Part shown: positions 12,139-17,196 of the stretch, piece by piece
Layout: every line of letters begins with the position of its first letter
How positions within the stretch are numbered: the stretch's first letter is position 1
Assembly: GCF_015482765.1 (NCBI RefSeq)
Contig: NZ_JADMLB010000073.1
Coordinates: 1 to 64,000 of the forward strand
Source of the DNA: Halodesulfovibrio sp.
GTDB lineage: Bacteria > Desulfobacterota > Desulfovibrionia > Desulfovibrionales > Desulfovibrionaceae
Direction: 5' to 3'
DNA length: 64,000 nucleotides
Notes under the pieces: model-generated
Database searches by the model: none
Seen by the model: only the letters and a program-made list of their open reading frames with translations
Told to the model about the DNA's origin: nothing
Made by a program: the position numbers and the translations under genes

Positions 12139-14430
12139 ATGCAAGGCCCTATTTCACGCACCATAGTAAAAATCTTCTGCGGTAATTCGCTTTCCCGCAG
12201 TTTGCTGCTTGGCATTATTGCTACTGTGTGCGCGACGATAACCTTCATTGGCATCTACCATTATTCCCAAAGCTATTGCAGTGCCCTTACTCAAGTTGAA
12301 AAAAGGGCTGTTGACCGCACTCAACGTCTTGCTGAAATACTCGCTATCCCTATCTGGAACATTGAATATGATACTGTAACAAGAATTATTGCGGTCTTTT
12401 CAGAATCCGATACGGTACTGCGTATCCAAGTAGAAGAGCCTGACGGTAAACTTATTGCAGACAAAATAAGTGATCCCACCCTGCATACCGACAAAGTCAT
12501 ATCCCGAGATATTTTTTACAATAATCAACACATCGGGCGACTTACAACGCATCTTACCTTTGACTCATTCAAAAAAAAACAACGCCAGGAACTGATCAAC
12601 TATTTATATGTTATCGGCTTCTTACTCATAGCTATTCTCTTTTTCACACATCAACTTCTCAAGCTGTATCTGAAAAAACCTCTTTTACAACTTAGCAAGA
12701 TGATTGATCAACTGCGCACCGGAACCTATCCGGAACATTACCCTACGCTTCAAACAAAAGAATTACAAAAAATTGCTCTTAACTTTAAAGAGATGGCCAA
12801 ACAAGTTGCGCTGCGTGAAACCCAGCTGACACACATCAATAACCAGCTGTACCAAAACATTGAAGAGCGTAAACATATTGAAACGCAACTGCGTACCAGT
12901 CAGGAACAATTCAGTCTCGTGGCTGCAAGCACTATGGATGGTATCATTGATCGTCATTTAGGGCAGGATTTTCTACTGTATACACCTAGATGGAAAGAAC
13001 TTCTGGGTTATTCTGATGCTGAGCTGACGAATTCTTTGTCAGTCTGGCTAGAACGCATTCATCCTGATGACCGAGCTAAAATCGAAAAAATTTCCCGCGC
13101 TGAACAATATGATGAGGATGGTCGTACAGAAAGCGAATACCGGATGAAGCACAAGGACGGAAAATACCGTTGGTTCCTCGGTCGTTCACAACTGCTATAT
13201 GATCAGGAAGGTGAAGCCTACCGCTTTATCAGCACACATTCGGAAATTACACCTAAAAAAATAGCCGAACAGCGACTGATATCGACCAAAGAGATGCTTC
13301 AAAATATCATCAACTGCATGCCTTCTCTTATTGTGGGCGTTACAGAAGATATGACTGTATCACTCTGGAACGATACTATTGAAGAAAGCACCGACATTGT
13401 ACCGGAAGCTGCCGAAGGTAAACGGTTCAGGGAGCTACTGCCTGAGCTGGCGTTCGTTGAACGACATATTCGAACATCTTTTGATGACAACACGCCTGTC
13501 ACAGTTCCTAAAGTAACCTCCATGCGCAAAGAGGCTCAGGTTACATATGACATTGTAATCTTCCCTGTTACCATCGGTACCAAGCGTGTTGCAGTACTCC
13601 GTATTGACGACATTTCTGATCGCCTACGGATGGAAGAACGCATCATTCAAACAGAGAAAATGGCTTCTATCAGCGGGCTTGCTGCAGGTATGGCGCATGA
13701 AATCAACAACCCGCTTGGAGGAATTCTCCAAGGTGTACAAAATATCCAACGCAGATTCAGCCCTGAACTTCCACCGAATGTTCGTGCGGCTGATCAATTG
13801 AATCTTTCGCTTGAAAAAATGAACACCTACATGGAGCAACGAGAAATCTTCAGCTTACTTGACGGTGTAACAGAATGCGGACGACGGGCTGCATCCATTA
13901 TTGCGAACATGCTTGAATTCAGCAGAAGCTCTAACATCAAGCGTATCCCGTGCGACATTCATTCTATCATTAATAAATCTATTGAACTTGCAGCGAATGA
14001 TTACGAGCTAAAAACTCAACATTATTTCAACCGCATCACGATCGTTCGGGAATTCGACTCAACAGTTTCTGAAATATCATGTGCTCCGCAGGAAATTGAA
14101 CAGGTCATATTGAACTTATTGAAAAATGCTGCACAGGCATTTTCCGCAGCAGAACCACCGGTGGCGAACCCTATCCTTATCATTACGACACAGCCTTCGG
14201 CTGCCGGAGTTATGATTACTATTGCAGACAACGGCCCCGGGATGAGTGAAGAAGTACGAAAACGAATTTTTGAACCGTTCTACACAACCAAACCGGTTGG
14301 AGATGGTACAGGTTTGGGGCTCTCTGTCTCGTACTTTATTATTACCAACAACCACAGTGGTACAATTTCTGTTACGGCAGCAGAGAATAAAGGTTCTGCG
14401 TTTAATGTTTACCTTCCAAAGGCGATGTAA
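12139..14430 (+). CDS. Membrane sensor histidine kinase with PAS domains
   Basis: A 763 aa sensor: a transmembrane helix (about 21-43), an extracytoplasmic domain of about 110 residues, a second helix (about 155-175), a HAMP-like linker with coiled coil, a PAS/PAC domain (about 255-375), a second PAS (about 380-490), then the kinase core. The phosphorylated histidine is in GMAHEINNPLGG. The ATPase domain shows NLLKNAAQAF, DNGPGM and GTGLGLSVSYF. No response regulator is adjacent, so the partner and the signal are unknown. The 279 bases upstream show no clear promoter. Confidence 0.92.
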   Translation: MQGPISRTIVKIFCGNSLSRSLLLGIIATVCATITFIGIYHYSQSYCSALTQVEKRAVDRTQRLAEILAIPIWNIEYDTVTRIIAVFSESDTVLRIQVEEPDGKLIADKISDPTLHTDKVISRDIFYNNQHIGRLTTHLTFDSFKKKQRQELINYLYVIGFLLIAILFFTHQLLKLYLKKPLLQLSKMIDQLRTGTYPEHYPTLQTKELQKIALNFKEMAKQVALRETQLTHINNQLYQNIEERKHIETQLRTSQEQFSLVAASTMDGIIDRHLGQDFLLYTPRWKELLGYSDAELTNSLSVWLERIHPDDRAKIEKISRAEQYDEDGRTESEYRMKHKDGKYRWFLGRSQLLYDQEGEAYRFISTHSEITPKKIAEQRLISTKEMLQNIINCMPSLIVGVTEDMTVSLWNDTIEESTDIVPEAAEGKRFRELLPELAFVERHIRTSFDDNTPVTVPKVTSMRKEAQVTYDIVIFPVTIGTKRVAVLRIDDISDRLRMEERIIQTEKMASISGLAAGMAHEINNPLGGILQGVQNIQRRFSPELPPNVRAADQLNLSLEKMNTYMEQREIFSLLDGVTECGRRAASIIANMLEFSRSSNIKRIPCDIHSIINKSIELAANDYELKTQHYFNRITIVREFDSTVSEISCAPQEIEQVILNLLKNAAQAFSAAEPPVANPILIITTQPSAAGVMITIADNGPGMSEEVRKRIFEPFYTTKPVGDGTGLGLSVSYFIITNNHSGTISVTAAENKGSAFNVYLPKAM

Positions 14431-14476
14431 AAACACTTCCCTTTATGCTCATTCTTCGTGCGACTAAATTTCAGAC

Positions 14477-14880
14477 AAAAAAAAGTGCACGTTTTCCGGT
14501 GACCGGCATGTTCATGAGTAGCTCAAGAACCTGATGTGTGCACGAACACGGGGTGACGAACCAACCCCACATTGTGGGCAACTCTATTTGCCATTATGGT
14601 ACCACCGATTTTCCGTAAGTCAGAACCTCCTGTCGAGGTTATTCAAACTATCCGCCTCTGCCACGTTTCTGCGCAGACTGCGAATCAGCCTTTACGCCTG
14701 TGTCTTAAAACCCACCACAGTGCGTTGCGCAGTCAGCGGGAATACAATTAACACTTCGCTTGAGATTGCCGCGATAACCCCTATCCGCTCTCACCTAGGG
14801 ACGATCCGCAGGTCTCTTCACTCACTTAAAGAGTAACACAGGATTCCGAACTGTCCAGTTATAGCAGAATCAAGCGTCGT
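14477..14880 (-). ncRNA. Candidate structured non-coding RNA
   Basis: A GC-rich island of about 400 bases inside an AT-rich gene-free stretch. Read on the minus strand it ends in GUGCAC (14490-14485) followed by eight U (14484-14477). A second GUGCAC at 14543-14538 could close a domain enclosing two local hairpins: GTTCATGAG/CTCAAGAAC (14510-14530, one mismatch) and CCGG-TCA-CCGG (14496-14506). Further stems are GGGG/CCCC (14550-14568), the competing CCCAC/GTGGG (14566-14578) and AACCTC/GAGGTT (14624-14640). It lacks the hallmark sequences of RNase P RNA, tmRNA and SRP RNA. The 5' end is uncertain and the strand rests on the U run. Confidence 0.5.
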
Positions 14881-15497
14881 ATATATAACCCTCGGCACAT
14901 TCATCTCATCATTTCCATTAAGTACAGTGGTTGCAGCCAGCTAACATGTCAGAAACGAATTACTGCACAAGAGACTAACATGCTGAATACACATAGCTTT
15001 TTCACATACAATATAACACATCGATGAAAGTAAAAAATTTTTGACCTCTCGGCTTTTATCTCAATAATGCGACTCAAACCGCTCATATCCCCCATAAACA
15101 CTGGGGAAAATCAAATTGTATAACTTTTTGCACCACAATTTTCCTCGTGAACCATAAGAACACGTTTTCAACTCCGACTTTCACGGTATTATATTGGTAT
15201 TAGAATCAACAAGCTGCAACTTTTAGTCATACTACGAGTTTCAACGTAGGAACGTAAAAGCGTCAAAAAACACATTTCTAATTATTTTATACTTACTTTT
15301 AGGGGTGTTATAACGCCATCTTTTCATCTCTAAATCTAAGACCACCCTGTTTGTGCAAAATTTTATACTGTTTTTTCTAGACCTACCCCACCCCAGTACA
15401 ATTTTTTCTACCGTTAGATTGAATGAAGTTTTTAGGGACTTTTCATAATATACTGATTTAATTGAATCTAGCATTATACTGGATATAAAACAGGTTT
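14881..15497. other. AT-rich gene-free stretch
   Basis: No reading frame here has a credible ribosome site or protein-like composition. The 110-codon minus-strand frame at 15241-15573 has the composition of random AT-rich DNA. Apart from possible promoter sequence for the flanking RNA candidates, nothing is seen. Confidence 0.4.
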
Positions 15498-15513
15498 TGG
15501 CACACATCGTGCT
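15498..15513 (+). promoter_or_regulatory. Sigma-54-like promoter
   Basis: TGGCAC (15498-15503) and GTGCT (15509-15513) put GG and GC exactly at the -24/-12 spacing of RpoN promoters. The -24 half is a full match; the -12 half is GTGC rather than TTGC. The predicted start is near 15524. Confidence 0.5.
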
Positions 15514-15523
15514 ATATAAAAAG

Positions 15524-15588
15524 TACTTCTTAAATTCACTAAAGACATATTTCGGCTTGAGGTGGCTCCTCAAGCCTTTGTCTTTTCT
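15524..15588 (+). ncRNA. Candidate sigma-54-dependent small RNA
   Basis: From the predicted start near 15524, transcription would meet an intrinsic terminator at once: GGCTTGAGG (15554-15562) and CCTCAAGCC (15568-15576), then a T-rich tail. The transcript would be about 60 bases with no reading frame. Promoter and terminator spaced like this suggest a small regulatory RNA; no target is known. Confidence 0.4.
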
Positions 15589-15659
15589 GAGGGCATAGAT
15601 TTTTGGTTACAAACCACATTATCATCTTTCAGAAAGCATCCTTTTCGGAAAAAAGAAAA

Positions 15660-15708: not shown

Positions 15709-17196
15709 CTAGTGTACCATACCCCGTTCCCAATCGATCCGGTTAATGATCATCTGGGAAAGATCATCCAGACCCATACGAGTTCTGGCTGCAATATGAA
15801 TTGCACGCGGATACATATGCGTTAATGCTTCCTGCTGTTCTGCATCAAGCGTATCCCATTTGTTTAAAATAAGAATTGTGGAAATTTCGTGTAAATCCAT
15901 ATCTTCAAGAATACGCTCTACAGCAGCAATCTGCTTTTCAAGTTCCGGATGCCCCGCATCTGCTACGTGCAGCAATAAGTCTGCGGCCTCAAGCTCTTCC
16001 AGTGTCGCGCGAAACGCTTCACGAAGTTCTTTCGGAAGGTTACGGATAAATCCTACGGTATCCGTCAAAATCAGCTCACGCTCTTCAGGAAAACGCAGTC
16101 TACGCGTTGTCGGATCAAGTGTTGCGAACAGCTTGTTTTCTGCAAGAACAGTTGAGTTTGTCAGCGCATTGAGGGTGGTGGATTTACCGGCATTTGTATA
16201 GCCGACAAGTGCTGCTACAGGAACACGGGCTTTGTTTCTTCGATCTCGTGCATAAGCGCGCTGCTTGCGTAATGATCCGAGCTCTTTTTTAAACCGCGCA
16301 ATGCGGTCACGAACCTTACGTCGATCAGTCTCAAGTTTGGTTTCACCCGGTCCACGACCACCGATACCCCCCATAAGTCTATCCATTGCACGGTTTTTGC
16401 CGACAAGGCGAGGAAGTGCATACTGCAACTGTGCCATCTCAACCTGCAGTTTCCCTGCACGGGTTGTGGCATGCTGCGCAAAGATATCCAAAATAAGCTG
16501 CGTCCGGTCGATAACTTTTCTTTCAGTTACCTCAGTCAGATTTCGCAGCTGTGCAGGAGAAAGCTCACCATCAAAAATAATCATGGAAGCATTTCCCTGA
16601 AGGCAAAGGATTTCCAGCTCCGCCAGTTTACCCTTACCCATAATAAATTTGTGATTAACCTGATGCACACGCTGCACGAGTCTTCCCGCAACAGAAACTC
16701 CGGCAGTGTCTGCTAGGTCTGCCAGTTCGTTCAGGTACGACTCCTGAACATCTTTTGGCTGCGTGCTCACGCTGACAAGAACTGCGTGTTCAGTACCGCC
16801 CTGTTTTCGGGCGCTGTCTGCTGTTCTAGCCAGCTCTTCTTCCAACGCTTCAGTCTGGGCTTCAAAATCGATATCGACCTTTTCCCATGAGGTTGGTGCG
16901 TGAACATTATATGATGTGCCGTCTGCTGATGGAACAGGTAAAATATGCGCAGACTGGAATGTTACTGGAGCCCCCATTCCGTCAACAGTCAGTACGGAAA
17001 TAGAGTCCAGACGCAAGAAAAGCATATCCATTAAGTCTTCCTGCGAAAGAAGCGCATCATTTAAGTGGGTGTGAACAAGACGCAGACCGCGAAGGCGGTC
17101 GCTGCTGGAACGGGCACGTGGAAGTTCCGGAATATAGATAGCACCGGTGTCGCCCACCAGAACCATTTGCGGTTTACCTTGGCGGTCAATAAGCAA
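15709..17196 (-). CDS. hflX: GTPase HflX
   Basis: Ribosome-associated GTPase that splits or rescues stalled 70S ribosomes. The 495 aa frame from the TTG at 17196 has the HflX N-terminal nucleotide-binding domain (about 135-320, with GKGKLAEL), the linker motif GGIGGRGPGETKLETDRR, and the G domain: GYTNAGKSTTLNAL (G1), DPTTRR (G2), DTVGF (G3) and NKWD (G4). The TTG is very unlikely to be the true start, because family-conserved sequence continues upstream (see the entry at 17197-17358). Confidence 0.93.
   Translation of the reverse strand: MLIDRQGKPQMVLVGDTGAIYIPELPRARSSSDRLRGLRLVHTHLNDALLSQEDLMDMLFLRLDSISVLTVDGMGAPVTFQSAHILPVPSADGTSYNVHAPTSWEKVDIDFEAQTEALEEELARTADSARKQGGTEHAVLVSVSTQPKDVQESYLNELADLADTAGVSVAGRLVQRVHQVNHKFIMGKGKLAELEILCLQGNASMIIFDGELSPAQLRNLTEVTERKVIDRTQLILDIFAQHATTRAGKLQVEMAQLQYALPRLVGKNRAMDRLMGGIGGRGPGETKLETDRRKVRDRIARFKKELGSLRKQRAYARDRRNKARVPVAALVGYTNAGKSTTLNALTNSTVLAENKLFATLDPTTRRLRFPEERELILTDTVGFIRNLPKELREAFRATLEELEAADLLLHVADAGHPELEKQIAAVERILEDMDLHEISTILILNKWDTLDAEQQEALTHMYPRAIHIAARTRMGLDDLSQMIINRIDWERGMVH

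Follow-up and report, generated by a model that had tools for sequence, protein, structure and literature searches.

RNAs of the CsrB/RsmZ type titrate CsrA and carry many GGA loops. The RNA described here resembles them in being intergenic, in occurring in several copies, in having a promoter-like site and a U-run together with a purine motif that contains GGA, and in that CsrA is encoded in 122 of its 124 carrier genomes. It differs from them in presenting one invariant GGAGG per unit instead of many GGA loops, and in having a defined covarying fold without an Rfam match, in which GGA is not specially exposed. Other multi-copy small RNAs, for example the Rhizobiales alpha-r families and the RsmX arrays, are likewise lineage-restricted, with paralogous or tandem copies and a constant core; however, these are linked to Hfq or RsmA, and a search of 35 genomes here found no Hfq. 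6S RNA (RF00013) is also a structured intergenic RNA, and the genome studied here shows no Rfam 6S. Nevertheless, 6S RNA was discarded as an identity for the present RNA, since there is no RF00013 match at the locus and four relatives (G002, G003, G005 and G006) carry both an Rfam 6S and an RNA of this family.

In Desulfovibrio vulgaris Hildenborough, the accessible part of one report describes Dv_sRNA2 as a target of the response regulator DVU0679, located downstream of the DVU0679 gene, with expression detected by tiling array (PMC3333781). Compared by description only, it is similar to the present RNA as a small RNA of a Desulfovibrio without assigned function, and it is set apart by its description as a DVU0679 target lying downstream of that gene (PMC3333781). 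The Desulfotalea-1 motif is listed, in the accessible part of its source, without an Rfam accession (PMC2864571). Both leads are known by description only; by Rfam 15 and by the accessible open-licence literature the family is new, and the parts of the PMC articles that could be consulted (PMC11124144, PMC3333781, PMC11109978, PMC2864571, PMC8632094) hold no account of this RNA. In the open-licence literature searched, little work seems to have been done on how small RNAs regulate genes in sulfate-reducing bacteria.

The block at 14477-14880, known RNAs and reading frames

The window, that is, the whole stretch of 64,000 nucleotides of Halodesulfovibrio sp. DNA that was analysed, contains at 14477-14880 a block that an earlier note had proposed as an undescribed RNA family. 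The proposal is supported by the lack of an Rfam match, the lack of a conserved frame, and conservation with compensatory changes. Judging from these comparisons, the block is very probably an RNA gene of a structured family, and we are nearly certain that such a family exists. The alignments show it as a predicted structured RNA gene of the minus strand, belonging to a modular family that has no Rfam 15 model. Its parts are as follows:

14477-14880, minus strand: predicted RNA gene of about 400 nt, double-module form, with the presumed 5' end on the 14880 side (DNA matches in the same genus and both-side changes)
About 14646-14880, minus strand: 5' module
14477-14645, minus strand: 3' module
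14899-14916, minus strand: conserved 18-mer GGAAATGATGAGATGAAT just 5' of the presumed start, a possible promoter or regulator site
14883-14888, minus strand: possible weak -10 element TTATAT, read from the sequence, with no good -35 seen
14762-14816, minus strand: long hairpin of the 5' module (GAGA..CCUGCG..CCCUA/UAGGG..), helices 2-4, both-side changes in 6 of 19 pairs
14671-14730, minus strand: closing helix GCGC/GCGC of the 5' module around two hairpins (14695-14724 and 14675-14691), helices 5-7
14624-14640, minus strand: hairpin AACCUC-GACAG-GAGGUU with the invariant GGAGG (14626-14630), helix 9, no both-side change
14577-14592, minus strand: core hairpin GGCAA-AUAGAG-UUGCC with hexaloop ANNGAG, helix 11, invariant in six close copies
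14485-14543, minus strand: 3' closing helix GUGCAC (14538-14543)/GUGCAC (14485-14490), helices 12-14
14477-14484, minus strand: U8 run of the presumed terminator, from the sequence

The end of the minus strand in GUGCAC plus eight U, which the earlier note had mentioned, is present at 14490-14477. The same note had described a GC-rich block in AT-rich surroundings, which holds towards the intergenic side and fails towards the gene side. In 200-base steps, GC content is 0.49-0.515 over 14500-14899 and 0.33-0.37 in the intergenic DNA at 14900-15599; the contrast is one-sided because the neighbouring gene flank (13800-14499) already reaches 0.395-0.47. The gene that ends beside the block, at 12139-14430 on the plus strand, is presumably histidine-kinase-like, to judge from its translation; it lies beyond the U-run and is convergent with the RNA. 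On the other side, beyond a long AT-rich gap, stands a minus-strand gene at 15709-17196 that we take, also from its translation, to be an HflX-like GTPase. Between the RNA and this gene, about 600 bases (14940-15540) are AT-rich and contain no evident gene. DNA conservation extends slightly further 5' than the RNA, to about 14935.

The 18-mer at 14899-14916 keeps 14 of 18 positions identical among the six close copies and is not kept in G002. A regulon sharing this site was considered and set aside, because a search of the genome for the upstream 18-mer GGAAATGATGMGATGAAT returned the window copy as its sole occurrence at up to 2 mismatches. The TTATAT at 14883-14888 was not returned by a consensus promoter scan, so that the window copy has no more than a weak promoter candidate.

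No Rfam 15 family reached its gathering score anywhere in the window, and at E<=10 the region 14400-15100 gave a single match, of 11.9 bits, outside the block. In 33 related loci no match at E<=1 overlapped the RNA: those obtained (a tRNA in L031 and below-cut-off matches in L021 and L024) all lie outside it, and a scan of 20 loci gave none. The search with covariance models that had been suggested thus points to no known family, either at the block or over the RNA in related loci. Likewise, the observation that the hallmarks of RNase P RNA, tmRNA and SRP RNA are lacking agrees with the absence of such Rfam matches from the window. RNase P RNA was rejected since its match (RF00010, 322.7 bits) sits at G000:C73, and tmRNA since its match (RF00023, 186.6 bits) sits at G000:C31, while ARAGORN found neither tRNA nor tmRNA in the window; SRP RNA has no Rfam match within it.

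With respect to 6S RNA, Rfam detects it in 51 of 59 genomes. RF00013 was not detected in the genome of the window, nor in G001, G004, G007, G008 and G009, and these six are the carriers of the window-type double RNA; the only other misses are G027 (74% complete) and G030 (67% complete). In the core Halodesulfovibrio the 6S RNA has been either lost or strongly diverged.

That no coding frame fits is correct insofar as frames are not conserved, although a mechanical frame of 100 amino acids exists on the plus strand at 14534-14836. The longest plus-strand stretches free of stops measure 54, 59, 120, 85 and 87 codons in the five other Halodesulfovibrio copies, and over 8 copies the longest such stretches vary in strand and length, which led us to reject coding; nor does the block read as a decayed coding gene, its reading frames not being conserved. 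A peptide beginning MANRVA after GGAGG was rejected as well: the ATG of the window lies about 31 nt past GGAGG, and in other genera CATAAC or CATACC often replace CATAAT.

Conservation and covariation in Halodesulfovibrio

Of 58 other genomes searched at the DNA level, 6 hold a match (7 of 59 with its own), and all of these belong to the same genus; the match of G002 is only 30 bases long. Over 14 helices and 77 pairs, 95.2% of the 461 cells of six genomes are paired. Changes on both sides occur in 13 of the 77 pairs against 5.1 in shuffles, with none of 500 shuffles as high, and sliding the helix partners lowers pairing to 33-46% in these six close copies. Further pair types were not above shuffles (97 of 500 as high) in this small set of six genomes. 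Of the two hairpins inside the closing helix of the 5' module, one has both-side changes in 2 of its 8 pairs and the other in 3 of its 6; the closing helix itself, of 4 pairs, is invariant in the six copies. The 3' closing helix encloses two hairpins (14510-14530 and 14496-14506), with both-side changes in helix 13 only. The helices of GGAGG and ANNGAG show no both-side change among the six Halodesulfovibrio copies. A long-range pairing given by RNAalifold (columns 21-35 with 446-461 of alignment A3) was left out of this pair count as unconvincing. In the copy of G007 (L004, about 1690-1770), a simple-repeat insertion of the type GAGTTGAGA separates the two RNA modules.

The minus strand is favoured because helix cells read on it contain 41 G-U against 3 A-C, and because of the U-run; it should be noted that this count leans to the minus strand, on which the structure was derived. 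The folding energy of the minus strand was no better than that of shuffles (z -0.46, 26 of 100 as good), and the plus strand gave z -1.43, with 10 of 100 shuffles as good. Since the block folds no better than shuffles, stems picked out by eye carry little weight as evidence. The support for a structured RNA, as drawn from the alignments, is comparative and not one of free energy.

The wider family and its single unit

With R1, a covariance model built on the 3' domain, matches at E<=0.5 were obtained in 32 of the 199 genomes searched within the bacterial family, the weakest being doubtful. A constant core could be read from these matches (21 copies; alignment columns with <5 letters left out): GGAGG, followed 35-44 nt on, start to start, by a 5-bp hairpin with the loop ANNGAG. 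A second model of 65 positions (R2) was made of this core from 19 sequences, namely 19 of 28 matches (alignment A8), without L002, L005, L025, L027-L029 and L039, and without the first copies of L017 and L018, which are partial. In these 19 sequences the hairpin is paired in 95/95 cells and three of its five pairs are changed on both sides. When R2 was run over 348 genomes of the order, 169 gave a match at E<=0.05. With the cut-off at E<=1e-4 it matched 125, made up of 124 of the 288 genomes of the family and one of 60 others (G039); the E-values of R1 and R2 are rough, from a shortened calibration. This extent of matches at E<=1e-4 (125/348, rough E-values) points to a gap in Rfam. Furthermore, an RNA with a constant core in 124/288 family genomes, often in multiple copies, offers a testable handle on post-transcriptional regulation.

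Carriers at E<=1e-4 span 24 of 44 genera of the family; the counts of 124, 122 and 24 are hand tallies, and the order set of 348 genomes is taken to contain all 288 of the family. The large genus g52 and several small-genome groups have none at E<=1e-4 among the matches listed. Judging from named contigs, the family is concentrated in Desulfovibrionaceae, the named carriers being Halodesulfovibrio spirochaetisodalis JC271, Halodesulfovibrio sp. SZUA-473, Desulfovibrio sp. A2 and two Desulfovibrio MAGs. Among 297 genomes sampled from the phylum, G536 and G576 were the two from outside the order that reached E<=1e-4. A spread beyond the order was rejected, as six weak loci read by eye were without the 3' domain and some resembled coding DNA. 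The same was decided for viral contigs, where three scans gave two pattern matches that fit only the hairpin demanded by the pattern itself, and for L049 and L053, which match only that hairpin.

The unit shared across the family measures about 200 nt and consists of a 5' hairpin, the GGAGG segment, the ANNGAG hairpin, a closing helix that encloses either one hairpin or two, and a U-run. A core search of the window and 79 loci gave 99 matches; unit counts use 95, after dropping 4 partial ones. GGAGG is present in 95/95 complete matches and the loop GAG in 99/99, counts that lean on a search model containing those letters. The core hairpin is paired in 98.6% of 492 cells across the 99 matches, and both-side changes affect 89 cells, where shuffles give 15.3, in an alignment that was fitted to the search model. 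Doubly changed pairs (4 vs 3.3) and pair types (8 vs 8.1) were not above shuffles in the same matches.

Fifteen single-unit genes of the CGUUAA type, picked by eye (alignment A10; without L150, L156, L158 and L173, also CGUUAA), align along their whole length. They are paired in 96.3% of 480 cells, and double changes fall in 11 of 32 pairs, where shuffles give 5.6 and 0/500 are as high. Seven of the nine pairs of the 5' hairpin are doubly changed, the AACG/CGUU stem around GGAGG shows no both-side change, the ANNGAG hairpin comes next, and the closing helix before the U-run is GAUUCGCC/GGCGAAUC. Compensatory changes in homologous regions, which the earlier note had asked to look for, are thus found in the genus of the window, in single-unit relatives and in the core hairpin. 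In other groups the closing helix is swapped for GUGCAC, GUCGUGCGCG/CGCGCACGAC, GUGCGCGG, AAGACUUGCC or others. The best stem before the first U-run has at least 6 bp in 73/99 copies (counted without a shuffled control); the first U-run was taken in each case and is not the terminator in some copies (e.g. L026, L032, L155). No U-run is within reach in 20/99 copies, 13 of which are in the arrays L132, L137, L168, L170 and L176.

Sigma-70-like sites scoring at least 9 of 12 precede 25% of the units (24/95), compared with 7% in controls made by simple letter shuffles. The distance from the -10 to GGAGG is 53-61 nt in 14 of these 24, and therefore the predicted transcripts would be about 200 nt long. 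In this context, the RNA of about 400 bases that had been proposed stands as a conserved block; beyond what could be seen in the window, it is the double-size member of a family of genes of about 200 nt. The first unit of the double still shows the ANNGAG hairpin in G005 and G006 and has no such hairpin in the window copy, which looks like a fused double unit.

Candidate mechanism and rival explanations

Hfq (PF17209, E<=0.001) was found in 0/35 genomes of the order, own included, whereas 5/14 control genomes were positive; an Hfq-dependent small RNA is thus unlikely. Several features suggest that the RNA would act in trans: a promoter-like site and a U-run are present in many members, no gene lies downstream in the window, there is no widely common neighbour, and paralogous or tandem copies occur. 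We propose that it would work without Hfq, presenting the GGAGG segment and the ANNGAG hairpin to an RNA-binding protein, which would in turn be titrated or steered by the RNA, and that dosage may be raised through extra copies and arrays. With moderate confidence we read it as an RNA that would act in trans by binding a protein, CsrA being the first to consider, and give an even chance to an Hfq-independent RNA that would present both elements to a protein so as to titrate or steer it. CsrA in particular, although the first candidate, is a doubtful choice of partner.

A CsrB-like sponge was tried in this respect. GGA occurs 6.56 times per 235-nt unit (623 against 548.5 expected, sd 17.3, in 95 units), much of this mild excess being due to the invariant GGAGG, and AGG, CGG and GAG are enriched as much as GGA in the same units. 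Predicted folds give GGA no special tendency to be unpaired (mean 0.35 away from the invariant site and 0.38 within it, against 0.43 for all triplets). Because GGA is mildly enriched and not exposed, and because the hexaloop reads GGA in only 6/99 copies, a sponge of this kind is not established: the count is weak and the loop exposure negative. CsrA itself is encoded in the genome of the window at G000:C71 and in 233/288 genomes of the family, including 122/124 carriers against 111/164 non-carriers (carriers at E<=1e-4). This association fits a CsrA link and is confounded by ancestry and reduced genomes; the Fisher test applied to it ignores shared ancestry. The carriers without CsrA are G218 (73% complete) and G343 (82% complete).

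Among the other explanations, a trans-acting small RNA that pairs with mRNAs independently of Hfq, through GGAGGGU or the A-rich stretch that follows, is rather unlikely. It would account for the size, the promoter-like sites, the U-runs, the paralogous copies and the conserved stretch around GGAGG, yet the conserved segment is purine-rich, when pairing with ribosome-binding sites would in general call for the opposite, and hexaloop positions 2 and 3 vary among copies. The invariant GGAGG could also suggest a decoy for the ribosome or the 16S anti-Shine-Dalgarno sequence, especially as GGAGG is kept in 95/95 units and no consistent start codon follows it (21 copies by eye). This we consider very unlikely and rejected, because the flanks do not fit 16S pairing: C precedes GGAGG in 62/95 and G follows it in 70/95, where pairing with the 16S tail would call for an A in front and a U behind. 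A housekeeping or scaffold RNA of a ribonucleoprotein, without regulatory target and with a role like that of 6S, SRP or RNase P RNA, is in turn unlikely. A defined fold with a widely conserved constant core would suit it; however, 164/288 family genomes have no match at E<=1e-4, others have up to 6 copies, and RNase P RNA and tmRNA are located elsewhere in the genome.

The structured RNA with a terminator-like helix and a U-run at its end also recalls a cis-acting leader, riboswitch or attenuator. Such a cis-regulatory role is highly improbable, because the gene past the U-run (12139-14430, plus strand) is convergent; in addition, neighbours are not widely conserved and units occur in tandem. 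Neighbouring genes are common only within subclades, the widest clusters covering 4 genera (54 loci). Finally, a protein gene, whether decayed or overlooked, can practically be dismissed, and so can chance: the 100-aa plus-strand frame of the window and the 120 stop-free plus-strand codons of G009 would speak for a gene, but stop-free stretches are inconsistent over 8 copies and the compensatory changes exceed those of shuffles and slid controls.

Returning to the protein-binding RNA, we suggest tentatively that it may be a modular ribonucleoprotein RNA and a global post-transcriptional regulator of Desulfovibrionaceae, which are without recognisable Hfq, in which the units would be protein docking modules, dosage would be set via copies and arrays, and two units would be fused in the 400-nt RNA of Halodesulfovibrio. 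Matches per genome range from one to six (R2, E<=0.05), and adjacent copies are in some cases each provided with their own promoter-like site and U-run, as both copies in L019 are. Head-to-tail arrays, with 3-4 units spaced by about 200 nt, were found at L176:488-1156, L168:510-984 and L137:482-970. There is no U-run between the units in L176 and L168, and L137 shows TTTTT after its first unit, with a stem of only 5 bp.
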